Below, piece after piece: positions 25,840 to 63,961 of a stretch of DNA of 64,000 nt. Numbering within the stretch: position 1 is the first letter of the stretch; the number at the start of each line of letters is the position of its first letter. Position numbers and translations under genes: made by a program. This stretch comes from Yersinia mollaretii ATCC 43969 (GTDB taxonomy: Bacteria; Pseudomonadota; Gammaproteobacteria; Enterobacterales; Enterobacteriaceae), in contig NZ_CP054043.1 in the NCBI RefSeq assembly GCF_013282725.1, forward strand, positions 4,539,535-4,603,534, read 5' to 3'. The notes beneath the pieces were generated by a model. It worked only from the letters and a program-made list of their open reading frames with translations. It had not been told where the DNA came from and searched no databases.

Positions 25840-26220
25840 GGGGCTGATTCTGGATTCGACGGGATTTGCGAAACCCAAGGTGCATGCCGAGGTGCGGAGG
25901 CCTCGTAAAAAACCGCAAAAAAAATAATTGCAAACGACTCGCAATACGAATCTGCTGCTTTAGCAGCTTAATCAGCCTAAGAAACTGAAGATTCCCTCTC
26001 TCCCTAGCCTCCGCTCTTAGGACGGGGATCAAGAGAGGTCAAACCTAAAAGAGATCGCGTGGACACCTTGCCTGGGGTGAAAGCGTTAAACCCAATCAGG
26101 ATAGTTTGTTAGTGGCGTGTCCGTCCGCAGCTAACCGGCGAATGTAATGACTGGACTAAGCATGTAGTGCCGACGGCGTAGTAATTTCGGACGGGGGTTC
26201 AAATCCCCCCAGCTCCACCA
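25840..26220 (+). ncRNA. ssrA: tmRNA (ssrA), tag peptide ANDSQYESAALAA
   Basis: The 381-base transfer-messenger RNA starts GGGGCTGATTCTGGATTCGA and ends in the T-arm GGGGGTTCAAATCCCC and encoded CCA, both pairing into the tRNA-Ala-like domain. The tag reading frame is at 25930-25971: a GCA resume codon, then AND-SQYESA-ALAA and TAA, giving a 13-residue tag that ends in the ALAA degron. An extended -10 (TGGTATACT) stands at 25818-25826. The last bases are part of the island's attachment site. Confidence 0.97.
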
Positions 26221-26223
26221 AAT
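26201..26223 (+). other. attL: 3' end of ssrA used as integration site
   Basis: AAATCCCCCCAGCTCCACCA plus AAT spans the end of ssrA. An imperfect copy, CTCCCCCAGCCCACCAAAT, stands at the far end of the island (48417-48435). ssrA is a known target of CP4-57-type integrases, and the integrase gene begins 200 bp to the right, as expected for attL. Confidence 0.82.
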
Positions 26224-26265
26224 TCTTGGTTGATGGTTACCAGAGCCATCCAACGAAGTCCTAGA

Positions 26266-26298
26266 AGCCCGCATGGCGCAAGCCCTGCGGGCTTTTTT
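26266..26298 (+). terminator. Intrinsic terminator after ssrA
   Basis: AGCCCGCA and TGCGGGCT form a stem with a 12-base loop followed by TTTTTT, 45 bp after the tmRNA. A similar element recurs at 48477, see there. Confidence 0.88.
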
Positions 26299-26352
26299 GT
26301 ACCTTCAATTTGTCCCTCGAAGTCTGAAGCCAACTAATTAAATCCGAACCTT

Positions 26353-26405
26353 TTAGGCACCTTGTTAGGCACCTCGTAAAGCATTATTGTTTTTGAGGTG
26401 CCTAA
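26353..26405. repeat. Integrase arm-type repeats, left end
   Basis: TTAGGCACCT occurs as direct copies at 26353-26362 and 26365-26374 and as an inverted copy AGGTGCCTAA at 26396-26405, just before the integrase ATG. Further copies stand near the right end (48335-48355). Short repeats near both ends of an island are the layout of arm-type sites bound by the integrase N-domain. Confidence 0.7.
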
Positions 26406-26423
26406 AACTATGGAAACCCTGCA

Positions 26424-27665
26424 ATGGCAAGACAAACCAAACCTTTATCCGTCAAGGAAATCGAATCCGCCAAACCCAAGGAAGCGGACTACGTTCTCTA
26501 TGATGGCGATGGCCTTGAGCTACTCATCAAATCAAGTGGCAGTAAGATCTGGCAGTTTCGCTACATTCGCCCTGTCACTAAGAAGCGTGCGAAAAAGAGC
26601 ATTGGCCCTTATCCGTCAGTCACCCTTGCCGATGCTCGAAGCTACCGGGCAGAAGCTCGTGCTCTCCTGACAAAACAGATCGATCCTCAGGAGCATCAGC
26701 AAGAACAACTCCGCAGCACTCTTGAAGCCCAAACTAATACTTTCAAACTTGTAGCTGAACGTTGGTGGAGTGTGAAGAAGACCAGTGTGACTGAGGACTA
26801 TGCAGAAGATATCTGGCGATCGCTAGAAAGGGATGTTTTACCGGCGATTGGCGATATGAGCGTCACAGATATTAAAGCACATACTCTGGTCCAAGCAATT
26901 CAACCTGTTCAGGCTCGCGGAGCATTGGAAACTGTTCGTCGCCTATGCCAACGCATCAATGAGGTCATGGTTTATGCTCAAAACACAGGTCTGATTGATG
27001 CAGTCCCCAGCGTCAATATTGGCAAGGCATTCGAGAAGCCTCAGAAAAAGAACATGCCAAGCATCCGTCCAGATCAGCTACCGCAACTCATGCAGACTAT
27101 GCGTACTGCCAACATTATCCTACCAACACGGTGCCTGTTCATGTGGCAACTTCTTACTATCACCCGCCCTGCCGAAGCGGCTGAAGCCCGCTGGGACGAG
27201 ATATATCTGGAAGCACGAGAATGGAAAATCCCCGCATCACGCATGAAAATGAACCGCGACCACACTATTCCATTGTCAGACCAAGCAATGGCTATTTTAG
27301 AAATGATGAAACCACTAAGTGTAAATCGAGAGTTTGTTTTTCCCAGTCGCATCAAACCGACTCAATCAATGAACAGTCAAACTGTGAATGCGGCGCTAAA
27401 ACGCGCCGGGTTAGGTGGCATACTCGTGTCTCACGGCTTGCGATCTATTGCTAGTACTGCACTCAACGAAGAAGGCTTTTCGCCTGACGTGATTGAAGCT
27501 GCACTTGCCCATGTCGATAAGAATGAGGTTCGTCGTGCGTATAACCGCAGCGACTATCTGGAGCAGCGGCGTCCCATGATGCAATGGTGGGCTGATTTTG
27601 TAAAAGCCGCTGATAAAGATGGTTTAGTAATAACTGGTACTCAAAATCTACGATTAGTTGTATGA
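26424..27665 (+). CDS. Tyrosine recombinase, CP4-57/P4-type island integrase
   Basis: A 413-residue integrase with the N-terminal DUF4102-type arm-binding domain (about 1-95, KEADYVLYDGDGLELLIK), a core-binding domain (about 105-195) and the catalytic domain. The catalytic residues are visible as R248 (ITRPAEA), H337-x-x-R340 (SHGLRS), H363 (AHVDKNE) and Y373 (RRAYNRSDY). It moves the island into or out of the ssrA 3' end. The gene appears intact. A decayed relative sits at 48614-49131, and matches this one through GALETVRRL. Confidence 0.93.
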   Translation: MARQTKPLSVKEIESAKPKEADYVLYDGDGLELLIKSSGSKIWQFRYIRPVTKKRAKKSIGPYPSVTLADARSYRAEARALLTKQIDPQEHQQEQLRSTLEAQTNTFKLVAERWWSVKKTSVTEDYAEDIWRSLERDVLPAIGDMSVTDIKAHTLVQAIQPVQARGALETVRRLCQRINEVMVYAQNTGLIDAVPSVNIGKAFEKPQKKNMPSIRPDQLPQLMQTMRTANIILPTRCLFMWQLLTITRPAEAAEARWDEIYLEAREWKIPASRMKMNRDHTIPLSDQAMAILEMMKPLSVNREFVFPSRIKPTQSMNSQTVNAALKRAGLGGILVSHGLRSIASTALNEEGFSPDVIEAALAHVDKNEVRRAYNRSDYLEQRRPMMQWWADFVKAADKDGLVITGTQNLRLVV

Positions 27666-29937: not shown

Positions 29938-30228
29938 CTAACCCCACCTAAATGCAGAGTAGTTTTTAAACGGCCATCGCAGGCTGGGGCTGCCCTCATC
30001 TCAATTTTAGATGTTGGATAGGTATTATAATGGCTATCTACTCTTAGTTCTAACTAATAACCCTCTAAGGGTAGAATTACTTAACAAGTAATTATCAGAT
30101 CACAACAGTATGGGGGTACTAAGATCTGACGCCAGTATATACCTTAATCATCGGTAAGGTATAGCCCTGCCTGTATGGCTCTTTATACGGTCTATAGCAG
30201 ACCGTAGGACCAACTACAGGTATATATT
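29938..30228. repeat. Cluster of four inverted repeats before the Gp2-like gene
   Basis: Within 132 bases stand AATTACTT-AAC-AAGTAATT (30075-30093), TCAGATC...GATCTGA (30095-30129), TATACCTTA...TAAGGTATA (30138-30163) and TACGGTCT-ATAGC-AGACCGTA (30186-30206). No ORF is seen in this stretch. Such hairpin density upstream of an HUH-type protein gene is what a replication origin or heavily folded leader would show; which one it is cannot be decided from sequence. Confidence 0.75.
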
Positions 30229-30855
30229 ATGAAAACATATCAAGGTACGCATGGTGAACACGTTCTCGAGTATTGGATCAAGATTAACTGTCTGCTGAAT
30301 GCATTGACCAACCGATACCAGAGAGTTACTGCTGTAAGAACTGATTTTCATCACACTCCTATTGTCGATAACGGAGACAATATCTGCTGCTTCCCTAACT
30401 TTGAACCCGGAGAGATATCGCGGACACGGGATTCCCTCAGAGCTAAACTGGTAGCTGATCGTATCCGTAAAGAGCGTGAAGGTAAACGAGTGTACCCCAG
30501 CCCTATGTTTTTGATATGGGCGAAAGAATACTCGAAATCAGGTAAATGCCACTATCACACTTGCCTGTTGTTCAACAAAGACGCCTATTACCACTTGGGA
30601 GATTGCGATCAGGCCAATAACCTGAGAGGGATGATCACCGGAGCCTGGTATAGCGCACTAAGGCTGGAATTGGACGATCACCCAGGTCTGGTCCATTTCC
30701 CTGAAAACTGTCGCTATGTGTTGGATACAAATAGTGCTGACTTCCAGCAGAACTACCAGGCGCTGTTAACCCGACTGGATTACCTCACCAAAGTTGAAAG
30801 CAAAGTTTTTGGGGAAGGGGATCGTAACTTCGGTTGCAGCCAAATCGATTTATAA
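30229..30855 (+). CDS. Inovirus-Gp2/YagK-YfjJ-like protein with HUH motif
   Basis: A 208-residue protein matching the YagK/YfjJ C-terminal (inovirus Gp2-type) family found in CP4-type islands. It carries HYH at residues 108-110 (GKCHYHTCLLFN), the form of the metal-binding HUH motif of rolling-circle initiators, and YLTK at 185-188, which fits the Y-x-x-K nicking motif, followed by the conserved DRNFGCSQ end. Inovirus gene II proteins nick the origin for replication; a similar activity is inferred. The start follows a strongly folded leader. A terminator follows at 30865. Confidence 0.8.
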   Translation: MKTYQGTHGEHVLEYWIKINCLLNALTNRYQRVTAVRTDFHHTPIVDNGDNICCFPNFEPGEISRTRDSLRAKLVADRIRKEREGKRVYPSPMFLIWAKEYSKSGKCHYHTCLLFNKDAYYHLGDCDQANNLRGMITGAWYSALRLELDDHPGLVHFPENCRYVLDTNSADFQQNYQALLTRLDYLTKVESKVFGEGDRNFGCSQIDL

Positions 30856-30864
30856 CTCGCCAGT

Positions 30865-30889
30865 GGCCTTCTCTGCGTGAGAAGGCCTT
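30865..30889. terminator. Terminator between convergent Gp2-like gene and cargo operon
   Basis: GGCCTTCTC-TGCGT-GAGAAGGCC followed by TTATT lies 10 bp after the Gp2-like stop. The cargo operon ends just to the right, so it may act for both strands. Confidence 0.75.
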
Positions 30890-30895
30890 ATTACG

Positions 30896-31303
30896 TCAGG
30901 GATAAGTTATATGTCCCATAATCGCGCAGATTAACCGGCAATCGGTGACGTTGAAGATCTTTGGGCTATCAGCGCTTTGCTCACCGATAAAGAAGACCCA
31001 AGCCTTATCTTTTAATCTTTTTGCTTTAGCTTCCTGTGCCTCTGTCCGAGCAGCTTCCAACTCTTTACGTACCACAGTCCGCTTGGCTTTTGACCACCCA
31101 GCCCATTTTATGTGGATCTGGTAACTTCGGGAGGATTTACGCTTTCCGGATTCGTCTTCCGCCCACTCGCCAGATAACGGGATGATGAGTTTTTCATCAT
31201 CTTCAACAAATTTATTCCAGAGCAGTTCAGCATAAAAGATCTTTGGCTCCGGGTAACGCGGAGCCTGAAATTGCGGGCTTGCCCCATGATACTTGACTCT
31301 CAT
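30896..31303 (-). CDS. Unrecognised 135-residue ORF at the end of the cargo operon
   Basis: The ORF starts at an ATG inside the multi-ubiquitin ORF and overlaps it by 77 bases in another frame. It contains an AELLWNKFVEDDEKLIIPLSG segment, an IHIKWAGW patch and a Lys/Glu/Arg-rich helix (VVRKELEAARTEAQEAKAKR). I do not recognise the family. The large overlap means either that the true start is further in, or that a frameshift or deletion fused the end of the preceding gene to this one. Function unknown; expected to be made from the same transcript. Confidence 0.5.
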   Translation of the reverse strand: MRVKYHGASPQFQAPRYPEPKIFYAELLWNKFVEDDEKLIIPLSGEWAEDESGKRKSSRSYQIHIKWAGWSKAKRTVVRKELEAARTEAQEAKAKRLKDKAWVFFIGEQSADSPKIFNVTDCRLICAIMGHITYP

Positions 31304-31631
31304 TGATAGTCAGTTTGAAATCGCGATCGGTCTGGAAGGCTACAAAGCGCTCTGCGCCACGACCGCGTAAATCGAAGGTTTCATCAAGGCGCAAGTCTTC
31401 AAAATCCCCCGTTTCCAGAATGGCAAACAGGCTATAATCATCATTTGCACGTAGACCAGCAGCAATCAGGATTTGACGACCCAGTGGCACAGGATCATTG
31501 ACTTCGATTGCGCGAAAAGCCAGGTTTTCCTGGGCGAACAGGATGCGGTAAGCGCGTGCCGAACGCAGATCACGGCCTTCGCGAATTGCTTCTCCTACAT
31601 CGTCAATATCGTTTATATTTTCAGTATTCAT
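31227..31631 (-). CDS. Multi-ubiquitin (beta-grasp) domain protein, probably truncated
   Basis: A 134-residue protein with one full ubiquitin-like unit at about residues 24-98. It shows the pattern of the Multi-ubiquitin family: strand IEVNDPVPLGRQILIAAG, FAILETGDFEDLRLDE and DLRGRGAERFVAFQT. A second unit begins (FKLTINESQVSWGKPAISGS) but stops after about 30 residues, so the protein looks cut short. In this family such proteins occur beside E1/E2/JAB-like genes, none of which is present here. AAGGTGATGCAAA precedes the ATG, and the ORF follows the fusion gene by 65 bp on the same strand. Confidence 0.72.
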   Translation of the reverse strand: MNTENINDIDDVGEAIREGRDLRSARAYRILFAQENLAFRAIEVNDPVPLGRQILIAAGLRANDDYSLFAILETGDFEDLRLDETFDLRGRGAERFVAFQTDRDFKLTINESQVSWGKPAISGSALPGAKDLLC

Positions 31632-31696
31632 TTTGCATCACCTTTTGAGTTTGGCCAGACGATGTCTGGCTCTACTACTCAATCGATGCAGGTCAA

Positions 31697-34600
31697 TCAG
31701 ACCGGTAAATTTTTTTTAGATTTTTTTTGAAGTACGCCTGCAGGAGTCAATCCGCAGACGAAAAATGCCGGGCAGGAGGGGCATACTCGAGATGATGACT
31801 CTGCTGGAAAGACTCCTTTAACTATTGAGTCAAGGGCAGTAAGAATTTTTTTATATCTATTATCCAACTGCTTAGCGGTCAGATCGATTGGGGTCACTGT
31901 TTGGTCAGAAAGGTGTACTAACTCCACTATTGCATCTGGAAAAACCTGCCGTGTTGCGAGTACAAAGGCAGCCGCGCCTAAGTCAGATTCTTCTTTATCT
32001 CTTTTATGTCCTGTTTTCACCCGGCGAAATGTTTTACGTCCATCTGGATGAACCAATACATCGTCAGGTTGTATGGTGATAGAGGTTTCCCCAAGCTTCA
32101 TTGTGAAGGCACAGGTTGCTTCAGAGTTGTGGCTTTCCCTAATCGAAGCGAAATAGCTAACCATGTCAATAGCTAGTGACTTAAATTCAGGAGCGTAACC
32201 GTGTTCAGTTAGGCCTTCGACAGTAAATGCCTGCGTGACCCTGTCTTCTATGTCCGTTATTTTTACGGGCGCGGTGTTGACCAACTCTTGGAATACATTG
32301 CGAACAGCATCGTGCATCTTTAGGAATGGCGTTGGAGTACGTCGTCCTCCAATTTGGAGAATGTGCGTATAGAAGAAACGGCGAGGGCAGGACTCATACA
32401 GGGAAATCTGAGCACCACTTAGAACTAGATCTCCGCTGACAACCCAGTCCACAGGTAATGACTCGGGCTTTTCGATTACCGCATGTAGAGGCTCCACGTT
32501 ATTTTGAACCAAGCTGGACCCTATACGGTTTAAAAAGTCGGATAACTTTCGGGTGCTGCCAGCAGCATTCCGCGTAGTAGCATAGAGAAATAGCCGATCT
32601 TCAGCTCTGGACAAGGCAACGTAGAATAAGCATTCTCTCTCCGCCTTATACTCCAGATTAAATTGCTCCTTGGCGTTGGACCTACCCTCTGCAATCATGC
32701 CATTGGGGGGTGGGCAAACCTGCTTCTGCGGATTACCTGGTAAAGTGTCTGCGTTCATGCCGGGTAAGTGAATCACAGGGAATTCGAGTCCCTTTGCTCC
32801 ATGAATGGTCATGAGGCGCACTGCATCAATGCTTTGTGCTGCCGCCGGAAGCTGCCGAAGATCGCGATCATCCCCTAGCCGAACCAAACGGCGGATGCGA
32901 TCTAATGTGCGAGTGATAAATACCCCTTCCCCGCTGGAGGGTTGTGCTCGTAAAAAATTGAGCAACTGCCAAGTTGCTATACATTGAGAGCGGACACTGC
33001 AGTGTGTTGATGTTGCCATACGGGCCGCGATTCGCGTCCTGTCTAAAAGTACAGTTGCCAACACGTTCCAGGGGGAGTCATTTGCGCTAAAACCGCTAAG
33101 TGTTTTGACAAGCCGATTTAAGGCTGTGCGCCCATTGTCTGAGATCTGAAAGTCATCGATTTTGGTTTTCCAATCACTTCCGGTTTCATCTTCACGCAGA
33201 TGTGTAAGGACACTGCCAACATCATCCAGTGACATCGTAAACTCAGGTAGGCAAGCTATTCGCACCAAGCCCATTGCACGACGATCTACTAAGAGGGAGA
33301 GCAGCGTCAGCCAATCCTTAATCTCGGGACGTTCAAATACACTTCCCAAGTAAAGTACAGGGATGCCTAAAATCTCGAGTTGTTGCCCGATTTCTGAGAG
33401 CTTCTCATTGCCTGTGCACAGGATTGCTTGATCACTGTATTTATAACCAGAGCCCTGCATCTCCTTTATCGCGTCCGCAATAGAGGGAGTTTGAAGACGT
33501 CCTTGATCCACGCAACGCAGCTCAGGTTTCTGGGCATTACTTGTTCGTTCCGCGCATAAACCGCTGTCAGCATCCCCTACAGTCATATTCAGCGCAAAAT
33601 TTGAAAATGCCGACACTATTTCGGGTACGGACCGGTAGTTCATTTTTAAACGATATCGCAACCCGCCAGGGAAATCCTCATTCCCAAAATGAATCATGTT
33701 GAACGACGAAGCGCCTCTGAAGCGATAGATTGACTGCTTAGCGTCTCCAACCACCCACAAGTTTTCGCCACCGCCACAAAGGGCTTTTAGCAGTCGTACG
33801 CTACTGTGGTTCACGTCCTGATATTCATCGACTAGAACGTGCTCATAAGTGGATTGGATGTGAGATAGAATGGCTTCATTTTCTTCAAGAAGCTTCACTG
33901 GCAATGAAACTAGGTCCCCAAAGTCAATGCATCGAGCCTGCCTTTTAAGGGTTTCGTAAGTGGCGTATACCCTGGCGACCTCAATGGATTTTTCTGCTGT
34001 TGCTATATCTTCAATCCCAACAGCTCTATCGCGCATGGCCTGTGCCAACGCGAGGTAGGTATTTGCATCGACTACCTCGTCCTTAGCACGCGAGATGCCG
34101 GTGAGGATGTCAGCAATCATCCGGGTTGGATCGTAAAGATTGCGATAGTGAACCAGATCTAATATGGGAAACTCATGTTCCAGCAGTTCTACTGCTTCCG
34201 TCCGGTCCAGCAGCCGAGGATCGAGCGGCAGATTCAGCTCGTCGTGAAATCGACGAATCAGATCGAGGCCGAATGAGTGGAAAGTGCCAATCCATATTGC
34301 AGCCGCAGCTTCCGTGTCAACGCGAGCTATCCTTTCAGCCATTTCTCCCGCAGCTTTGTTAGAGAAAGTCAGCAAAAGGATTTTTCGTGGGTCTACGCCA
34401 TCGGCAAGCAATCCTTTAACCCGTCCCACTAAAGTCTGAGTCTTGCCCGTACCAGGCCCAGCCTCAAGCAGAAAGGCCGGGCCTCGATGGGCGGCGGCTT
34501 TCTCCTGCTCAGCGTTCAATGGGTATTCAATCGCGGACTCTATATCTTCAGGTAAAGGTGGGGGTAGTAACAATGCATCAAAGATCTGCTGCGCAACAAC

Positions 34601-35107
34601 ATCGAATGGCGCACCAAGCTTCTCTGCAATACTTAACGCACTCATTCCATCCAGATAAAGCGTTTTTACTACATGCCGGGGAAGCAGAAACTCACGCGCA
34701 AATAGATCCATTTGGACCTCTCGACGCTGCCTGCGACTATAGTCTATAACCCGCTCAGCTCCCATCGGAGAAGCTTCTGAGGTTCTTGTTGGGTCTATAG
34801 TATAGCCTTGGTCATCCTCTTCAATGCCGTCGCCAAGTTCAGCGTGACCGATTTCATGGGCAACTAGGAACGCTTGTTCAAAAAGGGTTGTGCATTTTTC
34901 GTGGAGAATGAACTTCTCCGTTGGGAAAAAACGTGCTCGCGCGCCTCTTAGGCTAGGTGAGCCTTTCTTTGTACTCTCTACGTCAAAACCTCTTCTATCT
35001 GCCTCTGCAACAGCAAACTCGTATGGTTGCCATGGGTCATGTCCGGAAGCTACAGCTTGATCATGTAGAACAGCAGCAGCCTCGCGGGCCAATTCCACGG
35101 CTTGCAC
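31697..35107 (-). CDS. ImmA/IrrE peptidase - UvrD helicase - PD-(D/E)XK-like fusion protein
   Basis: A 1136-residue three-part protein. Residues about 1-180 form an ImmA/IrrE-type metallopeptidase: HEIGH at 84-88 with downstream E-V-Q-M-D-L-F-A-R-E-F. Residues about 195-870 form an SF1 (UvrD/Rep) helicase: Walker A EAGPGTGKTQT (about 215-225), VDEYQDVNHSS, GDAKQSIYRFRGA and VALSRAEDRLFLYA. The C-terminal part resembles the RecB/AddB nuclease: CPRRFFYTHIL plus CPSCPAFFVC (four Cys for an Fe-S cluster). The expected D/E-x-K is replaced by RRVKTG, so nuclease activity is doubtful. Start is GTG after GAGGA, one base past the previous stop. No exact family name is known to me for the fusion. Confidence 0.88.
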   Translation of the reverse strand: MQAVELAREAAAVLHDQAVASGHDPWQPYEFAVAEADRRGFDVESTKKGSPSLRGARARFFPTEKFILHEKCTTLFEQAFLVAHEIGHAELGDGIEEDDQGYTIDPTRTSEASPMGAERVIDYSRRQRREVQMDLFAREFLLPRHVVKTLYLDGMSALSIAEKLGAPFDVVAQQIFDALLLPPPLPEDIESAIEYPLNAEQEKAAAHRGPAFLLEAGPGTGKTQTLVGRVKGLLADGVDPRKILLLTFSNKAAGEMAERIARVDTEAAAAIWIGTFHSFGLDLIRRFHDELNLPLDPRLLDRTEAVELLEHEFPILDLVHYRNLYDPTRMIADILTGISRAKDEVVDANTYLALAQAMRDRAVGIEDIATAEKSIEVARVYATYETLKRQARCIDFGDLVSLPVKLLEENEAILSHIQSTYEHVLVDEYQDVNHSSVRLLKALCGGGENLWVVGDAKQSIYRFRGASSFNMIHFGNEDFPGGLRYRLKMNYRSVPEIVSAFSNFALNMTVGDADSGLCAERTSNAQKPELRCVDQGRLQTPSIADAIKEMQGSGYKYSDQAILCTGNEKLSEIGQQLEILGIPVLYLGSVFERPEIKDWLTLLSLLVDRRAMGLVRIACLPEFTMSLDDVGSVLTHLREDETGSDWKTKIDDFQISDNGRTALNRLVKTLSGFSANDSPWNVLATVLLDRTRIAARMATSTHCSVRSQCIATWQLLNFLRAQPSSGEGVFITRTLDRIRRLVRLGDDRDLRQLPAAAQSIDAVRLMTIHGAKGLEFPVIHLPGMNADTLPGNPQKQVCPPPNGMIAEGRSNAKEQFNLEYKAERECLFYVALSRAEDRLFLYATTRNAAGSTRKLSDFLNRIGSSLVQNNVEPLHAVIEKPESLPVDWVVSGDLVLSGAQISLYESCPRRFFYTHILQIGGRRTPTPFLKMHDAVRNVFQELVNTAPVKITDIEDRVTQAFTVEGLTEHGYAPEFKSLAIDMVSYFASIRESHNSEATCAFTMKLGETSITIQPDDVLVHPDGRKTFRRVKTGHKRDKEESDLGAAAFVLATRQVFPDAIVELVHLSDQTVTPIDLTAKQLDNRYKKILTALDSIVKGVFPAESSSRVCPSCPAFFVCGLTPAGVLQKKSKKNLPV

Positions 35108-35108
35108 G

Positions 35109-35690
35109 TTACTTGTCCTCTTCCATTAAGGTAGCGATATCTTCTTCAGACAGATCAGCATCTCGAAGGAGTTGTTCGAAAGTAATCTTCTCCACATTGC
35201 ACGGTTTTCCGTCGGACTTATAACTTCCTGCAACCGCCATGGGCGGCTGTTCAAGTGAGGTCGTGAGCTGCTTTACACTGCTTTGCAGCAGTTCAGCGAA
35301 TCTGCTCAAAAATCGCTGAGGAATAGATCCGGCAGCTACGGTTCGTTCCCTAAATGCCATGACTACCTGTCGAGGTAAGTTTAGTGCTTTGGAGATATCA
35401 CGCATTTTTTGAGCTGAGAGATCAGCGAATGGATCTATCATCATTTTTCCTGGAGCATTTTGGATGCGTGTGACGGCCGAACTGATCAAGCGGCGATCAT
35501 ATTCAGATAGCGGTGCCTCATCCTCCGCTAATGTGCTTGCCATCTCGCGAGATAGATCGATGATTTCATTGGTAAACGCTGGATATGCAGTAAGATATTT
35601 TTGCAAGGTAGCTGTACCTACATCATGCTCTATAGAGAATGACTCTAGTACCTCTTCCAGGGATGCCTGAGGTGAAAGTCCTGTCATCAT
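35109..35690 (-). CDS. Small cytoplasmic regulator-like protein, partner of the ImmA fusion
   Basis: A 193-residue protein without signal peptide or membrane helix. The central part (ALNLPRQVVMAFRERTVAAGSIPQRFLSRFAELLQ, about residues 103-137) looks like an XRE-type helix-turn-helix or related DNA/protein-binding fold, and the tail GKPCNVEKITFEQLLRDAD is conserved-looking. The start overlaps the sigma-like stop (ATGATG, four bases) and its stop lies one base before the fusion gene's GTG, so the three genes are one coupled set. By analogy with XRE-ImmA/IrrE pairs it may be the substrate of the peptidase domain; this is inference. Confidence 0.6.
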   Translation of the reverse strand: MMTGLSPQASLEEVLESFSIEHDVGTATLQKYLTAYPAFTNEIIDLSREMASTLAEDEAPLSEYDRRLISSAVTRIQNAPGKMMIDPFADLSAQKMRDISKALNLPRQVVMAFRERTVAAGSIPQRFLSRFAELLQSSVKQLTTSLEQPPMAVAGSYKSDGKPCNVEKITFEQLLRDADLSEEDIATLMEEDK

Positions 35691-36478
35691 AGGTCCCCTT
35701 GAAGCAGTATACGAAGACTTGCGAGTGCCTTCTTTTTTTGATTACGAATGGTCTTTTCAACCTTATTGAGTGCCTTGGAAATAGTCACCTCATTTGGGTC
35801 TATTGAGTCTATTGGAATATCTAATCGGGTCATTTCAATGATTCTCCGCTGTAGTTCAGGTAGAGCCTCAATCGCCGCATCAAGCCTACAACGGTAACGA
35901 TAATTGTCGATATCTGTTGCCTCAAAAGGATCATACCCCTCAGAGGCAGTCTCAACTTCTGAATTAAGGTCGGCCGAATCATCATCAAATCCCAAATCGG
36001 TATTTCTATTCTCAGCCCGATAAGATTTCCTTTGAGCGTCTTTTTTTAATCTCGATAAAGCCAGATCAAAACGCACTTCGAACATGTCCAATCGTTCCTC
36101 GTAGCCTGCTTTGTCGATCATAAGCATCTCAATGAATCGGTCATACACACCCTCTCGGATGTCGCTATTCGTCATTGATACGGCATTTCCGCCTAGGCTT
36201 TCGGGCCACGGAAGTTTCCTAAGGATTCGTTCTGAAAGAACTCTGAAGAGCTGTTCAAAAAGATATGGGTTAGTTGATGCGCTGCGTCGAACGAAATAAA
36301 GAAGGCATTCACTGGGTACGTATTGCGGATGTGTCCTACTTTGCTTACACAAATCTACCAGATCTCCGCCTGAAAGAGTGCTAAGTGCCGCTAGCCTGGT
36401 TTCGTTCACAGGTATGCGTGTGTACAGCTTTCCAGCCTCAGTTTTTTTTTGAAGAGGAACGATCAATGCAACCTCCAT
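35687..36478 (-). CDS. Sigma-70 region 4-like protein heading the cargo operon
   Basis: A roughly 263-residue protein whose C-terminus reads as a sigma-region-4-like helix-turn-helix: LDAAIEALPELQRRIIEMTRL, then SKALNKVEKTIRNQKKKALASLR. The middle (about 100-180) is charged and may be a region-2-like segment, but core motifs are weak. The ATG at 36478 lacks a strong ribosome site; a TTG four codons later follows GGAGG and may be used, and the frame is open to 36538. It is the first gene of the set with the regulator-like protein and the ImmA-helicase fusion. A role in switching on the operon or the host response is inferred. Confidence 0.55.
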   Translation of the reverse strand: MEVALIVPLQKKTEAGKLYTRIPVNETRLAALSTLSGGDLVDLCKQSRTHPQYVPSECLLYFVRRSASTNPYLFEQLFRVLSERILRKLPWPESLGGNAVSMTNSDIREGVYDRFIEMLMIDKAGYEERLDMFEVRFDLALSRLKKDAQRKSYRAENRNTDLGFDDDSADLNSEVETASEGYDPFEATDIDNYRYRCRLDAAIEALPELQRRIIEMTRLDIPIDSIDPNEVTISKALNKVEKTIRNQKKKALASLRILLQGDL

Positions 36479-36538
36479 CATATTACGCGTGCATAGACAG
36501 GTGCTTTGTGCTCCTAGCATTAGCACAACTAGACTCAA

Positions 36539-36866: not shown

Positions 36867-38495
36867 TTACCAAATGATGGGTGTAGCAATCGCGCCGTTC
36901 CTACCAATGAACTGTGAGGGATCACCGTTCTTAACATTTCCTTGCCCATTGATGCGATAGTTCGATGTCATCAACACGCAAGCTTTAATCGCACGCGTGA
37001 CCCCAACGTAATGCAGATTTAAACATTGAGTTTCATTCTCAAAGATAACCTGACCAAATGTTCCTGGAGGATAGAGGCGTGTAGGAATAACGTGATCGTA
37101 CAGATCAGCATGGAAAACAAGGTCAAATTCCAGCCCTTTGGCCTTGTGCAGGGTCATAATCTGAACGGCATTGTCGCTGGGTCTTTGGAACCAGCGAAGC
37201 TTGGCGGTATCACCGCAAACACTCTCAAGCTCAGTCACAGCGACTGGTGAAGGTTGTTGTCTTAGTAAGCTTGCGGCCGCAGCTAACACTCTCACAATGA
37301 GATCGCCATCTAAGCAAGATCGGCAACTTAAAATCGCTCGACGAAGCGCGCGCAGCTCCTGTGTAGTTCGATTTAGTTTACCAGCTCGATCAATCAGAGA
37401 CTCGGCAGTCATCCTTGGGTCGTAACGCAGTTTCAGCAAATCAGAAAAAAGTGTTGCTTCGGTCGTTGGTGCTGCCTCGAAAGGATTATCCTCGACAAGT
37501 CGGTGAGAAAGTCTCAGATGATTAGCAATCAACTTCGCCGAATGCTGATGCCGACAGAGAATGGCCACTCTTTCCGCCGAGGCAATTTGATAGTGATCCA
37601 CTAGATGAGGTATGGCGGTTTCTAACCAGAGACCCATAGCACGTTGGTCACCATTGATCGTCTTGATTAACACCCGCATATTGTCCGTCGGCGTGATTGG
37701 ATGGTTTGGGTTGAGCAGACGAAGTGCAAAATCATTGATGGACGGATGACAGCGGAAATTAGTAGTGATAGAAAAATGCTCAAAGCCGCTGCCTTGCGCT
37801 GTAAGTGCTAGTAGATGTTTGGGGGATTTTTGAGCAAATGCATAAATAGATTGGTCATTGTCGCCGACTGCAACAGCTGTCAAACCAAGTTCCTTCAACT
37901 TTTGAAATAACTGATGCTGAAAGTATCCACTGTCCTGATATTCGTCAATATAGACTGCTCGATAACGTGCCACGAGGTATTTCTGGCAGGCAAGTGACCG
38001 TCCGACCACGTAGTGGGCAAGCATACCTACTGCTTCTAAGGGGACGAAACCTAAGGCTAGTGCCTGCTGTATGAACGGCAGGAACTTAATTGTGTTGGTA
38101 ACGCTACCGTCCTTAAGCGGCGTCACCGGTAGCATACGTGTCACCGAGTCGGGCAGTTCCCTGATCTTGACAGTCTTGACCTCAGCGGCCGCAGACATCA
38201 ACTGCCGCGCGAATGGAAAGATGATCTCTCGAAGACAAAAATCGTCGATAGTGCCGAAGAAAGAACTCTTCACGTCGAAAGCGTCGGCTCTGCAGCGGCG
38301 ACCCAGCTCGTCACTCGCTTTGTTTGTGAAGGAAATGGCGATGATGCCTTGGTAGGGACGTAGCTCAGACACCATGTTCCGAACCTTGCATGACAGAACG
38401 CTGGTTTTCCCACTGCCGGGACGGGCGGTGATAACCATGTCGCTCTCGTATTGAATAGCTTGGTTTTGTTCTGCACTTGGCGTGAAGGTAGCCAT
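36867..38495 (-). CDS. gajB: UvrD-like helicase, GajB of a Gabija system
   Basis: A 542-residue SF1A helicase with Walker A ARPGSGKTSV (about 23-32), IDEYQDSGYFQHQL, GDNDQSIYAFAQ and LHYVGVTRAIKACVLM motif VI. The ATG at 38495 follows AGG with a 2-base gap from the gajA stop; a Met at 38525 inside gajA is less likely. Gabija pairs a GajA OLD-type nuclease with a GajB UvrD-like helicase, and this order and coupling match. GajB is typically about 490-560 residues, which fits. Note: 36867 is near 388 bp upstream of the sigma-led operon. Confidence 0.82.
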   Translation of the reverse strand: MATFTPSAEQNQAIQYESDMVITARPGSGKTSVLSCKVRNMVSELRPYQGIIAISFTNKASDELGRRCRADAFDVKSSFFGTIDDFCLREIIFPFARQLMSAAAEVKTVKIRELPDSVTRMLPVTPLKDGSVTNTIKFLPFIQQALALGFVPLEAVGMLAHYVVGRSLACQKYLVARYRAVYIDEYQDSGYFQHQLFQKLKELGLTAVAVGDNDQSIYAFAQKSPKHLLALTAQGSGFEHFSITTNFRCHPSINDFALRLLNPNHPITPTDNMRVLIKTINGDQRAMGLWLETAIPHLVDHYQIASAERVAILCRHQHSAKLIANHLRLSHRLVEDNPFEAAPTTEATLFSDLLKLRYDPRMTAESLIDRAGKLNRTTQELRALRRAILSCRSCLDGDLIVRVLAAAASLLRQQPSPVAVTELESVCGDTAKLRWFQRPSDNAVQIMTLHKAKGLEFDLVFHADLYDHVIPTRLYPPGTFGQVIFENETQCLNLHYVGVTRAIKACVLMTSNYRINGQGNVKNGDPSQFIGRNGAIATPIIW

Positions 38496-38497
38496 AA

Positions 38498-40216
38498 TTA
38501 AACCTGCGCTGCAGCTTGGATGCAATGGAGCAACGGCTTTAACAGATGCCCATTAATTTGAACTCTGAGCTGGGGTCCGCAGTGCTCAACGAACTCCTGC
38601 ATGCGTATGGCTTTTTTGCCTTGCATGTAAGCGATCGCTTGAATTAATTCATGACCTTTGAACCCGTTCAACAGTGTCGGGAGTTCGGCAGCAATGTCAT
38701 TTTCCAGATCAATTTGCGAAAGGAAGATGCCGTGGGGGGCGACGGAGGTACTGACTGTTTGCCAAGTGCCGTCAGCCAACGATGCAGCATGATCATATGT
38801 TTGAGAACGGTGTGGCTGAGGAGGCATACCAGCTAGTGATAGAGCACGGTTCATGCCCGCGAGGTTGCGACGCACCTCTTGCGCCCCTCGAGGGCCGATC
38901 AGAATATCGGAGATGTCATTATCGGTTCGCGCAGCCCATGGGATCTCCAAAGCGTTTAACACGCGCTTATAAACCTCAAACGCCACACCATCAACAGACA
39001 ACAATGATACATTGCTGTGATCAAGATCGTAACCATGAGCACGTGCTAGTGCTGCATAGAACAGCATTTCTGAAGGTCCCTCAACTAACATGACTGCTGA
39101 GGAGAAAAACGCCTCCGCTGGAAGAATGCTTATTCTGTAGCCAAGCCCTGTCCATGCGCTATTGATGCAATCAGAGCAGCCTTGACTTGCCGCTCGGGAC
39201 GCTCCGTTGCTACGCAATAGGCGAACAATCGAGTTGGGGTGGTAGCTTGCAGCAATCTGCGGAGAATGCGTGGTAACTATGGTTTGACCAGGTAACGCGC
39301 TGATGAGATAGCTTGCAAGTTTGCGCTGCTGATGAGGGTGCAGATGTGCTTCGGGCTCTTCGACGCAATAGATCACCACCTCGCTGTCTTGGTCATGCTC
39401 AAGCACACTCTTTGCTTTCCACAAAGCCAGCAGGATTTGATTATTGCGGCCGTCACCCCCGAGCATTACACGAGAACCATTGGTGCTGGCCCCCAGTTCC
39501 AACTGCTCGATGAATTGCTCGATACCTATTGCTCCGGTATCCAGTGAAACGTTGTATCCCATGTGATGGTGGGAGAGAGCCTGCAATTCATCGTTTAGGT
39601 CTCTGGTCGCCTCTGCTACGTAGTGCAGGTTCTTCACGCCAGAGTTTACTGATTCCAGCAGCCTAGCAAGTGTCTGTAGCTGTATGGCATCGGCATCCAC
39701 TTGGGCATCGTCGCGTGATTCCTGCGCAAGACGCAAAAGATGCCGCTTCTCCGAACGGATGTACCGCACAAGGTCCCGCTGAGAGTGGATGTACTTCAGA
39801 TGGAGGTGCTTCAGGTAGTGACGACTAGGAATAACCTCCATTGCTGAGAGGTCATAGCCTGCAGCGATTTCATAGCTATGGTTCGCCCTGGTGGCCCGAA
39901 ATTCAAGAAAGAAGTGGCCCGTAGCACTGACAAAACCCTTGAGCTGAGAAAGAACGGCGTCCTGAGTTACTTCTGAGAACGCAACTCGAATCATAAAATA
40001 ATCGGCCTGCATGCCATTTTGCCCACAATGGAAATCACGTGCAGTCGGCTCGATATCAGCCTCTGACAAACTCTTGTCGAGCAAGAGTCGCAACGCATGG
40101 ATCATATTGGTTTTACCAACATCGTTGCTTCCAATCACCAAGCTGTTCTTGGCTAGATTGATGTACGCTTCAGCGAAGTTTCGGTACTGATGCAGATAGA
40201 CGTAGTCGATTTTCAT
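38498..40216 (-). CDS. gajA: OLD-family ATPase/TOPRIM endonuclease, GajA of a Gabija system
   Basis: A 572-residue protein with an ABC-type ATPase domain: Walker A VIGSNDVGKTN (about 28-37), a signature-like MLGGDGRNN, Walker B YCVEEPEAHLHPHQQ and the H-loop THSPQ. The C-terminal TOPRIM domain shows VEGPSEMLFYAAL, SVDG and RTDND, the acidic metal-binding set. This is the class 2 OLD architecture, defined by an adjacent UvrD-like helicase, and it matches GajA in length (about 580). GajA senses nucleotide depletion and cuts DNA in phage-infected cells. The gene has a weak ribosome site. Confidence 0.82.
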   Translation of the reverse strand: MKIDYVYLHQYRNFAEAYINLAKNSLVIGSNDVGKTNMIHALRLLLDKSLSEADIEPTARDFHCGQNGMQADYFMIRVAFSEVTQDAVLSQLKGFVSATGHFFLEFRATRANHSYEIAAGYDLSAMEVIPSRHYLKHLHLKYIHSQRDLVRYIRSEKRHLLRLAQESRDDAQVDADAIQLQTLARLLESVNSGVKNLHYVAEATRDLNDELQALSHHHMGYNVSLDTGAIGIEQFIEQLELGASTNGSRVMLGGDGRNNQILLALWKAKSVLEHDQDSEVVIYCVEEPEAHLHPHQQRKLASYLISALPGQTIVTTHSPQIAASYHPNSIVRLLRSNGASRAASQGCSDCINSAWTGLGYRISILPAEAFFSSAVMLVEGPSEMLFYAALARAHGYDLDHSNVSLLSVDGVAFEVYKRVLNALEIPWAARTDNDISDILIGPRGAQEVRRNLAGMNRALSLAGMPPQPHRSQTYDHAASLADGTWQTVSTSVAPHGIFLSQIDLENDIAAELPTLLNGFKGHELIQAIAYMQGKKAIRMQEFVEHCGPQLRVQINGHLLKPLLHCIQAAAQV

Positions 40217-60043: not shown

Positions 60044-61102
60044 CTAACGACTGATGCTTAATTTATCGTAACCACGGACATAATAGTTAACGGCTGAAAT
60101 TAACCAACAGAGTATAAACATACCAATAATCCAGTAGCCTATCTCGCCTAAATTCTCACTGATATTATTGATTGGCGTCCAAATCCCACCAGTTAAATTA
60201 AGCTTATCTGCAATGAGTCCTAGCGCCTCAATCCCACCAATAAAGAAAGCAATGATAACGGAAGCCGCTGTAATGGTAATGTTGTAATAGAGTTTTCGCA
60301 CCGGTTTAGAGAATGCCCAACCATAAGCGCCAATCATCACAAAATTATCAAGTGAGTCGATCAAGGCCATCCCCGCGGCAAATAAAATGGGGAATACCAT
60401 AATTGACCACAGATTCATACCGTGGGTTGCACTGGCAGCGGAAATACCTAATACCCCAATTTCAGTGGCCGTATCAAAACCCAAGCCGAATAAAAAACCT
60501 ACCGGGTACATATGCCAGCTTTTACTCACCATGTTGAACACACGTTTGAAGATTCTGGCGAGAAAGCCCCCATTATTGACCACCAGCAGATCAAGTTCTT
60601 CGTCTTTATAGATATGCCCCGCTTTGACCTGCTTGAACTTTTTGTACACTGAAATCAGGATGGCTAAATTAAGAAAACCAAACAGCAATAAAAACAGTGA
60701 TGAAACCAGCGTGCCAATTAAACCACCGGTTTCATGGAACCAAGCCATATTATTCTTAAATGCCATTGCCGTTGCCGCGATGGCCAGTGAAGCTAGTATT
60801 ACGATGGTTGAATGGCCGAGAGAGAAGAAGGTGCCGACCGCAATCGGCGTCTTACCCTGCTGCATCAGTTTGCGGGTGACATTATCAATGGCCGCAATAT
60901 GATCCGCATCAACCGCGTGACGAAGACCAAAGCTATAAGCCAAAAACGCCATCCCCATCAAGACGGCATTGTCATTAAACTCAATAAAGGCCCAACCCCA
61001 TGCCAGCCCGTTGACAATCAGTAAACCTATCAGCAAGTAGATAGCACGAAGCTTAGTTTGCCGATTGCCAAAGGCGCTACTTCTCTCTATTCCTGTCGTC
61101 AT
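60044..61102 (-). CDS. Nickel/cobalt permease, NixA/HoxN family
   Basis: A 352-residue membrane protein with about eight helices. The nickel signature HAVDADHIAAIDN lies at about residues 62-74, GHSTIV follows, and GFDTATE appears near 210. It supplies nickel to urease. GGAGTACAAAC precedes the ATG. The gene ends the ureF-ureG-ureD-yut-permease arrangement known from Yersinia urease clusters. Confidence 0.93.
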   Translation of the reverse strand: MTTGIERSSAFGNRQTKLRAIYLLIGLLIVNGLAWGWAFIEFNDNAVLMGMAFLAYSFGLRHAVDADHIAAIDNVTRKLMQQGKTPIAVGTFFSLGHSTIVILASLAIAATAMAFKNNMAWFHETGGLIGTLVSSLFLLLFGFLNLAILISVYKKFKQVKAGHIYKDEELDLLVVNNGGFLARIFKRVFNMVSKSWHMYPVGFLFGLGFDTATEIGVLGISAASATHGMNLWSIMVFPILFAAGMALIDSLDNFVMIGAYGWAFSKPVRKLYYNITITAASVIIAFFIGGIEALGLIADKLNLTGGIWTPINNISENLGEIGYWIIGMFILCWLISAVNYYVRGYDKLSISR

Positions 61103-61125
61103 GTTTGTACTCCAGAATAAGATCG

Positions 61126-62118
61126 CTATTGTCGATGCGCAGGCATCACCTCTTTATTCGGTACCAGGAATAACCATGAGGCCAACACAAATGGCATGGT
61201 TAACGTCGGAATGCCAATCGGCGACAGTAAAGTATTGAGTGCCCCTTGAACAATGACAGTGAAAATAACGCCAACAATGGTGTAAGCCAGAACACGCCAA
61301 CTGGGCTTATTGAAGGTAGAACCCAAGGCAATAGCGGTTAATACGGCGCTGAAAGCATAAAGCCCGGCATTAATACTCTGGTGATCTGCATCGAGGAAAA
61401 CGGCGGTAAGGATTGCTAATAACGCGCCACAGACGCCAAAAATAGCCGCCCATAGCGATTCAACCGCTAAGCCAATAACAAATAATATGCCGCCAATTAA
61501 GCTGCTGAATAAAAATACCTGTGAAATGCCGTTAAACATGCTGACAAAAATATTGCTCTGCGCGAAAAAATTACTGCTATCCAAAACGAGCTGATGCGGG
61601 AGAGCTGGCGTCGGAAGTCCGCTGCTATGGAGACCGGCAAAGGCATAGCTGCCCAGCAATATCATCCAGGTGGTTAAGACAAAAGGAGCGGTCAGTGCGG
61701 CGACTTTCCAGGTTTTTAAAATATCGGCGATACAAACAGTGACAATGACCGAGACGATACTGCCCAAGATAATGCAGGCCCAAAGTACCGGCGTGACGAC
61801 CAAAAATGTCGGCAGTGCCGCGCCGACTAAACAGCCGTTATAACCATATAATCCGGCCCGCCATGATTTACGGTCACGCATGGTTAGCCCGGTTAAGGTG
61901 GCAACCACCGTACCCAGCACACAGCCATAAGCCACCGCCGGATTCCCCTCACCATAAGCGCCGACAAATATGGCGATAAAAAAGAATAGCCCCGTTAATG
62001 GGTTATTTTGGAACATAACCTGTGCGCAGCCACGCAAAGTGGTATCGATAAATTCAATGAAAACATTCGAAGCACTTAATTGTGCCCAACCGGATTGATT
62101 GCCCGTTTTCGTATTCAT
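61126..62118 (-). CDS. yut: Urea transporter Yut
   Basis: A 330-residue UT-type urea channel with about ten membrane segments: FIDTTLRGCAQVMFQNNPLTGLFF (about 24-47, repeat 1) and a matching second half (GISQVFLFSSLIGGILF). Passive uptake feeds the cytoplasmic urease. The start is placed at MNTKTGN after AAGGGTAAAATA; the open frame extends 21 codons upstream. Lies between ureD and the nickel permease gene. Confidence 0.93.
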   Translation of the reverse strand: MNTKTGNQSGWAQLSASNVFIEFIDTTLRGCAQVMFQNNPLTGLFFFIAIFVGAYGEGNPAVAYGCVLGTVVATLTGLTMRDRKSWRAGLYGYNGCLVGAALPTFLVVTPVLWACIILGSIVSVIVTVCIADILKTWKVAALTAPFVLTTWMILLGSYAFAGLHSSGLPTPALPHQLVLDSSNFFAQSNIFVSMFNGISQVFLFSSLIGGILFVIGLAVESLWAAIFGVCGALLAILTAVFLDADHQSINAGLYAFSAVLTAIALGSTFNKPSWRVLAYTIVGVIFTVIVQGALNTLLSPIGIPTLTMPFVLASWLFLVPNKEVMPAHRQ

Positions 62119-62217
62119 TATTTTACCCTTCTTACTTGAAGCCGCAGCTGTGTTAGCTGCACTCCTCTGTTGTTGCAGCAATTTCTGACTGCAACGCCTA
62201 TAACGTTGAGCGGCACC

Positions 62218-63183
62218 TTAACGCCACAAGAATTTTTCCGGCAAGGTAATACCGAGAATTTCCTCGCGGGCGATTTTCCAGAATTGTCGAATTTCAGCCT
62301 TAACACCGCCGCTGTCGATGCCCAGCGCTTTAAATACCAAACCGCAATCATTGGGTAATCGGGTTGCCCCACTGGCAATGCCACCATTAATATCAAATCG
62401 CGCGGGAACCCGAGCCAGAATGCGGTCGTGATGCTCTTTTGGGGTTAATAAAATTACGTTGCCGAAAGCATCGAATGTTTGCATCACACCAATAGCATCA
62501 AGACTTTCTGACTTCGGTTGCAATATATATTTCTCAACAAACAGCTCCTTGCCAGCTAAATCCTGTGCCGCCACTCTTGATGAGTAAACATCAAAACCAA
62601 AGCGCTCTTCCGCGTGGTGATATTTACGCCCAGACATCAGCACTTCGGAATAGATCGCGGTCGCTGTCGGATGAATATTAATGGTGGTCTCCGTAATAAA
62701 ACGTGAATTACGGTGCGGGATTAGCGGGTCCGGCATAAATTCCAGATAGCCCCCCTCTTCCACGGTGAAATGTTGTATTTGCGATGCGTAGTTCGCATTC
62801 ATCATGTGCACTTTGGTTGCCGATTGTGTAGTGACATGAGCACAGGCTCCGGCCTCCACATGCACATCTGTTGCCAGCCGGTCCCCCTGCAAAATGCAGC
62901 CCGCCGTCGAGATCATGGTGACACAAGGTAACTCGGGCATCTCCTCATCCCAATAGAGTGCTTTTTGCACCAAGGAAGGCACCCGTCTTTCCATTTCTGC
63001 CAAAACACTGCGCTGTCCACGTTTGGCGAATCTCAGTTTGAGATAGCCACTTTTCCCTACGGCCCCGCTACGCATTTGCGCCGGTTCGTCCTGATATTTC
63101 GCGAGTTCCGGCGCGTTAATACCTAAGGCGTGAGCACGAACCCGTGAAGGTGTTTCCACGATATTCTGGCTCTGGGATGTCAT
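62218..63183 (-). CDS. ureD: Urease accessory protein UreD
   Basis: UreD (UreH) forms the UreDFG chaperone that carries nickel into the urease apoprotein. The 321-residue protein has the family [24 protein letters not shown] (about 45-68), [13 protein letters not shown] near 110 and [18 protein letters not shown] near 170. It overlaps the ureG stop by four bases (ATGA). Confidence 0.95.
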
Positions 63184-63845
63184 GCGTTGGCTCCTTCAGG
63201 TTGGACGTGGGTAAACAGGAAGTCGCGCATAATCATGTCCACCAGCTCTTCAATACCCTGCCCAGTTTTACAGTTGGTCAGGATATAAGGGCGCTCGCCA
63301 CGGACGACTTTGGTGTCACTCTCCATCACATCCAGACTGGCACCCACATAAGGGGCAAGGTCAATTTTGTTGATGACCAGAATATCGGCCTGAACCAAAC
63401 CGGGGCCATTTTTGCGTGGGATTTTCTCCCCTTCGGCCACATCAATGACATAGATATAGAAGTCAGCCAGTGCCGGGCTGAAAGTGAGTGTCAGGTTATC
63501 ACCGCCACTTTCAATCATAATTAGGTCGCTATCGGGGAAGCGCTCTTCCATCTCTTCCACGGCGGCAATGTTCATACTGGGGTCTTCGCGCACGGCGGTA
63601 TGCGGGCAGGCACCGGTCTCCACCCCGAGAATTTTCTCTTCATCTAAAATGCCTTTCAGTGTGCGTTTGACCTGTTTGGCATCTTCGGTGGTGACGATAT
63701 CATTGGTGATAATCAGTGGCTTAACGCCCCGCTTAATCAGAATGGGGGTGATCACTTCAATGATGGCGGTTTTACCTGAACCGACCGGGCCACCAATACC
63801 AATGCGGGTAATCTTTTTGCGTTTATCGGTTGAATGGCTATTCAC
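63180..63845 (-). CDS. ureG: Urease accessory GTPase UreG
   Basis: UreG is a SIMIBI-class GTPase that delivers nickel to urease. The 221-residue protein shows P-loop [15 protein letters not shown] (about 15-29), the ESGGDN motif near 115 and [13 protein letters not shown] at 63845 ([11 protein letters not shown]) after AAGAGGATTATCCC is chosen; an in-frame ATG further upstream gives an extension not seen in the family. It is coupled to ureD. Confidence 0.95.
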
Positions 63846-63961
63846 GGGATAATCCTCTTCATTTAATCTGATTTGGGTCAGTGCTCGGTTCACAGCAAAC
63901 CCAGCACTCAAAATTCATTCTTGTTTATCAGTCAATCGCTCACTGATTAATTGTTCACTGA

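Follow-up and report, generated by a model that had tools for sequence, protein, structure and literature searches.

A leftward run of genes at positions 30,896 to 36,538 of the window (the whole stretch analysed here, i.e. 64,000 nucleotides of Yersinia mollaretii ATCC 43969, contig NZ_CP054043.1 of assembly GCF_013282725.1, positions 4,539,535 to 4,603,534) begins with genes for a putative sigma factor (gene 1), a helical protein (g2) and an ImmA/IrrE-type protease fused to a UvrD helicase (gene 3), followed by the remains of a multi-ubiquitin gene (gene 4). We propose, with a probability of roughly 0.6, that genes 1 to 3 are a controller cassette placed ahead of a ubiquitin-like conjugation operon, which would be switched on by DNA damage through the sigma factor. 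It is the family, a conserved controller of Bub-like operons built from sigma factor, g2 and protease-helicase, that carries the novelty, not this copy. The following features were located:

35687..36466, minus strand: gene 1, sigma factor by predicted fold, 259 residues; the open reading frame (ORF) extends to 36538, the preferred start being the TTG at 36466
35109..35690, minus strand: gene 2 (g2), helical protein of 193 residues, residues 83-150 XRE/434-Cro-like
31697..35107, minus strand: gene 3, ImmA/IrrE (M78) protease, UvrD helicase and degenerate PD-(D/E)XK domain with four cysteines, 1136 residues, GTG start
34583..34996, minus strand: M78/ImmA domain of gene 3, residues 38-175, HEIGH at 84-88
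31754..32422, minus strand: PD-(D/E)XK-like domain of gene 3, residues 896-1118, no [DE]-x-K, cysteines 907, 1109, 1112 and 1118
31681..31708, minus strand: promoter-like element P2, TTACCGG-N16-CGATT, proposed target of gene 1
31254..31631, minus strand: gene 4, truncated multi-ubiquitin gene retaining its first ubiquitin domain and a portion of the second, with an ORF that continues to 31227 through foreign sequence
31254..31255, no strand: recombination junction, about 2 bp shared
30896..31255, minus strand: C-terminal fragment of PD-Lambda-4_B, outside the system, in the ORF 30896-31303

Genes 1 and 2 overlap, genes 2 and 3 are separated by one base, and gene 4 starts (31631) 65 bp past gene 3. 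Gene 1 most likely begins at the TTG at 36466, five bases ahead of which lies a GGAGG that is kept in three relatives (L011, L013 and L033); the alternative start at 36538 was rejected on this conservation. The Pfam match of gene 1 to sigma-70 region 4 is below threshold (E = 0.005), but structure comparison supports the likeness to this region pointed out in a preliminary description of the DNA. Indeed, both the sigma-2 and sigma-4 folds are present in an AlphaFold2 model of the protein (pLDDT 90.4), of the 50 rows that VIA-align lists for this model, 48 bear titles of sigma factors or RNA polymerase complexes, and the sigma-4 part superposes at a root-mean-square deviation of 1.4-2.4. The modelled fold thus supports gene 1 being a sigma factor. 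As for g2, we propose that it acts as an anti-sigma factor or repressor and is the substrate of the protease.

The three domains previously read in the 1136-residue product of gene 3 (ImmA/IrrE peptidase, UvrD helicase and RecB-like nuclease relic) were all found in Pfam, namely M78/ImmA (E = 4e-13), UvrD (1e-63, from residue 197 on) and PDDEXK_1 (2e-10). The conservation of their active sites was followed in 70 sequences (61 loci, the window and eight plasmid or Escherichia coli copies, fusions below approx. 900 residues being dropped). Gene 3 of the window carries HEIGH and E130, i.e. HExxH with a third glutamate, and these zinc ligands are kept in 69 (H84), 67 (E85), 68 (H88) and 68 (E130) sequences. 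All 12 helicase residues checked are kept in 70/70 relatives; in the nuclease-like domain, the four cysteines are present in 70/70 and [DE]-x-K in 0/70. A sequence search of the M78 part against solved structures returned no IrrE or ImmA structure. With PADLOC, the best model for gene 3 is RTasHel, followed by a partial GajB, and gene 3 is not GajB.

The complete order sigma/g2/ImmA-UvrD/multi-ubiquitin/DUF6791-ThiF/DUF6527 (in the ThiF protein, DUF6791 takes up the N-terminal half and ThiF what remains) was found in the annotation of E. coli CP61, a Klebsiella plasmid, Acinetobacter plasmids, Mesorhizobium, Cereibacter and Leptolyngbya, and the first five genes in that of Rhizobium sullae, whose gene table does not list DUF6527. 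Alignments were built for all six operon proteins, and that of gene 3 was used to scan one genome per species. The best 80 of 586 candidate stretches, comprising 70 fusions and 10 plain UvrD helicases, were retained; the resulting counts are not a census, and near relatives among the loci are not independent. The fusion loci span eight named phyla, 57 of the 70 belonging to Pseudomonadota. At the 66 fusion loci with 2 kb of upstream sequence, g2 precedes gene 3 in 65 (L094 counted) and the sigma gene does so in 61, the gene models having been iterated over the loci and 60 of 69 g2 and 56 of 68 sigma matches used after redundancy and length filters. None of the 10 plain UvrD loci (seven with 4 kb downstream) showed conjugation genes, g2 or a sigma gene. 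The order of genes 1 to 4 of the set first described is therefore not confined to this strain; only the placing of the fifth reading frame behind them is. The cassette also occurs on a cyanobacterial plasmid and, in the host's class, in 2 of 369 genomes, one being the host; the intact operon is rare in E. coli, where 2 of 5,426 genomes match this part, one of them with a shortened gene 3. None of the 253 pattern matches obtained when viral contigs were scanned with the fusion alignment was confirmed. Several loci bear traces of mobile elements: the fusion gene of E. coli STEC383 (L012:12444-15032) is cut to 1764 bp with IS1 adjoining, an annotated IS5-type transposase (ISAba31) stands between the fusion and multi-ubiquitin genes of an Acinetobacter johnsonii plasmid (L032:6312-7271), and Tn7-like transposition genes lie near the operon on two plasmids (L013:2992-8895, with TnsA, transposase and TnsD-type genes, and L032:14179-17173).

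Genes adjoining the fusion were counted at the 58 of 70 loci with at least 4 kb downstream, the 12 loci with less being left uncounted. Conjugation genes adjoin it at 54 of these (52 downstream and two divergent, L036 and L067); the other four consist of one locus with a PARP (L101) and three with neither (L066, L078 and L093). Three classes were distinguished, labels being assigned by best E-value and domain names taken from Pfam:

— Class A, that of the window, has a multi-ubiquitin gene and a DUF6791-E1 (17/58).

— Class B has a JAB-E1 (18/58), with a multi-ubiquitin gene in 17 loci.

— Class C has a 162-residue protein, DUF7665, JAB and another E1 (17/58).

A multi-ubiquitin gene together with a class-C E1 was met at 2/58 loci. 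The three classes require five changes when placed on a gene 3 tree made with FastTree (minimum 2; shuffled mean 29.8), indicating that the cassette mostly stayed with one effector class as it spread and was re-paired several times.

The relation to Bub operons is closest in class B. At L053, the E1 aligns with residues 8-458 of the 463 of Citrobacter BubCD (E = 1.3e-151), and the multi-ubiquitin protein matches a solved multi-ubiquitin protein, BubA (2.4e-27) and BubB (1.1e-24) in one chain, so that the cassette precedes true Bub operons in this class. Classes A and C are diverged relatives of these operons. A BubB-type E2 and a JAB BubD were not found in class A, both being met in class B, e.g. 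at L053; the class-C E1 searched against solved structures gave only MoeB (E = 0.12), and NCBIfam applied to ten conjugation-related proteins returned only unnamed PRK06153 models above cut-off for the class of the window. Individual loci show further variants. The class-C example L082:13216-16079 (17 like loci) combines a 162-residue protein lacking a Pfam or NCBIfam match with a diverged ThiF E1, and at L078 the fusion gene is followed by a PIN-domain protein. In an Armatimonadaceae genome (L101:13107-14420), the conjugation genes are replaced by a PARP that has both WGR and PARP_reg domains and follows the cassette. On a Spirosoma plasmid (L031:625-6780), a diverged sigma factor (Sigma70_r4_2, 5e-12) and g2 lie beside a separate PD-(D/E)XK protein and an 829-residue protein without Pfam domain, these cassette-like genes being divergent from multi-ubiquitin/ThiF/DUF6527; this arrangement in a bacteroidete is perhaps a split version of the cassette.

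A recurrent motif, TT[TA]CCGG-N15/16-CGATT, separates gene 3 from the conjugation genes. Of 63 windows, 33 contained its strict form and 42 its relaxed form; among 12,077 random windows of the same length from the same loci, the proportions were 0.17% and 1.1%. Since the pattern was drawn up after viewing these sequences, the contrast with background is descriptive. By class, the relaxed motif is present in 26/27 (A, of which 21 strict), 11/16 (B) and 5/17 (C), and the spacing is 16 in 28 of 34 cases. The motif was found in none (0/8) of eight DUF6791-ThiF loci without the cassette; L031, which also lacks it, was left out of these controls because of its diverged sigma factor and g2. In the window, P2 overlaps the end of gene 3 and stands 50 bp ahead of the multi-ubiquitin start. 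In class C, variant motifs stand ahead of the sigma gene as well as ahead of the conjugation genes, and over the 17 loci the motif before the sigma gene is closer to its own P2 than to those of others (14.65 versus 13.17 of 16; 0/20,000 permutations), with the reservations that the permutations break up related loci, that about 4 of the 17 best pairs are not the motif, and that random windows averaged 13.07 of 16 with a maximum of 16. No such motif lies ahead of gene 1 in class A, including the window, hence self-activation is not general. The bare pattern occurs five times in the host genome, equal to its reversed control, so that it is not diagnostic by itself, and the case for P2 as a sigma-directed promoter is circumstantial.

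We suggest the following working for the cassette. Gene 1 would be an alternative sigma factor, kept silent by g2 acting either on this protein or on its promoter. Abnormal or invading DNA would be engaged by the helicase part of gene 3 together with the dead Fe-S nuclease-like domain, whereupon the fused ImmA protease could cleave g2. The released sigma factor would then transcribe from P2 and, in one class, also from a similar promoter ahead of its own gene, yielding Bub or Bub-like machinery that would tag proteins. The roles of g2 as substrate, of the sigma factor as output and of the DNA motor as sensor are drawn from the analogy with CapH+CapP-type pairs. Damage-triggered proteolytic release, already envisaged in the preliminary description, is the best model for the sigma fold, the protease motif kept in 67-69 of 70 sequences and the P2 motif that follows the cassette and precedes the conjugation genes; the nature of the signal, DNA damage, is what we infer. 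It is about an even bet whether genes 1 to 3 should be ranked as a fourth class of DNA-damage controller, an alternative-sigma response held in one locus, in which a helicase-fused protease would read damage directly and free a sigma factor for conjugation (at least three enzyme classes) or, in one genome, PARP.

The copy in the window is a special case. It is 94% identical to E. coli CP61 (L011) from 36612 down to 31254, where the match ends and where L011 continues with a complete multi-ubiquitin protein (251 residues, three Multi_ubiq stretches), then ThiF and DUF6527. From 29948 to 31255 it is 81% identical to E. coli MDK6L1 (L014), which has there a YagK-like gene and a complete PD-Lambda-4_B of 302 residues. 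The match is far above chance (E = 0), and the two homologies meet at 31254/31255 with about 2 bp shared, so that the window holds a fusion of two islands. The multi-ubiquitin protein announced earlier is thus real as a domain (PF14452/Multi_ubiq, E = 2.5e-23) but is encoded by a gene cut at approx. 31254. The ORF 30896-31303, formerly counted as an unknown fifth member, aligns to residues 184-303 of the PADLOC model PD-Lambda-4_B (E = 1.7e-62): it is the C-terminal part of the B protein of PD-Lambda-4, of which about 180 N-terminal residues are gone. Of the five leftward, near-touching genes announced, four co-directional ORFs were confirmed, the first three of which overlap or touch, but a single five-gene system was rejected on account of the junction, the set being partly a recombination product. 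Other gene sets taken from one island may likewise have arisen by recombination.

The E1-like ThiF gene of the intact relatives is absent from the window, as are an E2-like BubB, a JAB peptidase BubD and DUF6527; in the host genome, no DUF6791 was detected by a search that finds it in a positive control, and gene 4 is the single Multi_ubiq match. Genes 1 to 3 and P2 look intact in this strain, whereas the effector half is lost, and at most the truncated multi-ubiquitin ORF could be driven. We consider it likely, given the missing DUF6791 E1 and the cut multi-ubiquitin gene, that this copy is debris without function here, even though genes 1 to 3 are open with all checked motifs kept and dN/dS against L011 is 0.27, 0.36 and 0.17 for genes 1, 2 and 3; these values, however, may mostly reflect the time preceding the cut. 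Loss of function in this strain does not concern the family and is compatible with a controller role of the cassette.

An effector role of the helicase-protease itself, with the regulator genes merely controlling an antiphage protein, was the view of the preliminary description. It draws on the UvrD-like motors that act as effectors or partners in Gabija and other systems, on the fully kept helicase motifs and on the Gabija pair announced next door, which does adjoin the cassette (36867-40216), both genes being full length by PADLOC (GajB 2.5e-197, GajA 3.8e-236). As a nuclease effector, gene 3 was rejected since the catalytic motif is gone in every sequence; furthermore, the conserved downstream genes are conjugation enzymes, and P2 sits between gene 3 and them. 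We therefore regard this effector role as unlikely. Equally doubtful is a direct part for gene 3 in the conjugation pathway, as a DNA-recruited peptidase or as a selector of targets for tags at breaks, genes 1 and 2 acting separately as regulators. The adjacency of conjugation genes in 54 of 58 loci (and of PARP in one) would fit, and a metalloprotease could deconjugate, but the protease is kept in class B, where E1 is already fused to a JAB peptidase, and the M78 peptidases beside multi-ubiquitin genes pair with helix-turn-helix (HTH) regulators, both among our loci and in the available portion of PMC4963859. Lastly, an addiction module formed by genes 2 and 3 and stabilising the operon, as was proposed for the XRE/HTH-DUF955 pairs beside 70% of PF14452 genes that were interpreted as toxin-antitoxin (PMC4963859, part of the text), is very improbable, as it fits neither the sigma factor in 61 of 66 loci nor the promoter-like motif, and later work takes such pairs as damage controllers (PMC13373217, in part).

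The controller reading also agrees with what occupies this place elsewhere. According to the portion of PMC13373217 available, 219 of 544 Bub operons carry CapW or CapH+CapP and 59 carry CapK+CapS, CapP is activated by single-stranded DNA and cleaves CapH, and such pairs are reported as DNA-damage controllers. CapH+CapP and IrrE-DdrO, like the cassette with its putative HTH-type protein g2, place an M78 protease beside an HTH-type protein ahead of an immune or stress operon, and the known cases are damage-responsive (PMC13373217 and PMC5552922, both in part); the cassette differs in that its protease is joined to a UvrD helicase and a dead nuclease and in having a sigma factor as well. CapW and CapK+CapS hold the same promoter-side slot of Bub operons (same portion), but are WYL or kinase/STAS proteins without protease, helicase or sigma factor. 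Other multi-ubiquitin loci of our set have in this slot an HTH+M78 pair (L023, L030) or a WYL protein (L024, L025), the domains being verified for L023 and L024. Bub operons and class 6e of Iyer 2006 (polyUbl, JAB-E1 or X-E1, and a metal-binding protein; PMC1779556, in part) have the multi-ubiquitin protein and E1 in common with our operons; class B matches the Bub enzymes nearly full length, whereas class A has DUF6791 in place of JAB and an E1 that resembles BubCD weakly (2.2e-5). The sigma/g2/ImmA-UvrD cassette is unmentioned in the available portions of PMC1779556 and PMC13373217. It is likewise not described in the literature searched, outside which key recent Bub/Bil papers fell, so that its absence from print is unproven.

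The switching-on of Bub has been explained for only part of the operons, and a conserved sigma factor with a candidate promoter offers a direct handle on it. If correct, the proposed working predicts an inducer (DNA damage), the protein that the protease cuts (g2) and precisely where the conjugation transcript begins, and would provide an example of a protease under the guidance of a DNA motor fused to it. PARP is linked to DNA breaks in eukaryotes; the L101 locus, if representative, would extend the theme to a second protein-modifying enzyme.

Phage defence would be a plausible role of the operon. Bub operons are not shown to protect against phage in the available part of PMC13373217. The genes flanking the cassette are at most suggestive of defence: among the flanking genes chosen at fusion loci, 125 of 178, from 32 of 45 loci, gave 46 PADLOC families at 1e-20, including IetA (4 genes), AbiEii (3), GajB-type helicases (3), AbiEi (2) and IetS (2), versus 11 families for 110 genes at the 10 plain UvrD loci (mad3 with 7 genes, others with 1 each), bearing in mind that neither the taxa nor the island content are the same in the two sets and that GajB models match UvrD helicases generally. 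The island of the window seems to sit at ssrA. At 25840-27665, a transfer-messenger RNA gene is followed by a 413-residue ORF that resembles a tyrosine integrase by eye. Far from the cassette, at 60044-63911, ORFs resemble, by eye, a nickel transporter, a urea transporter and urease accessory proteins.

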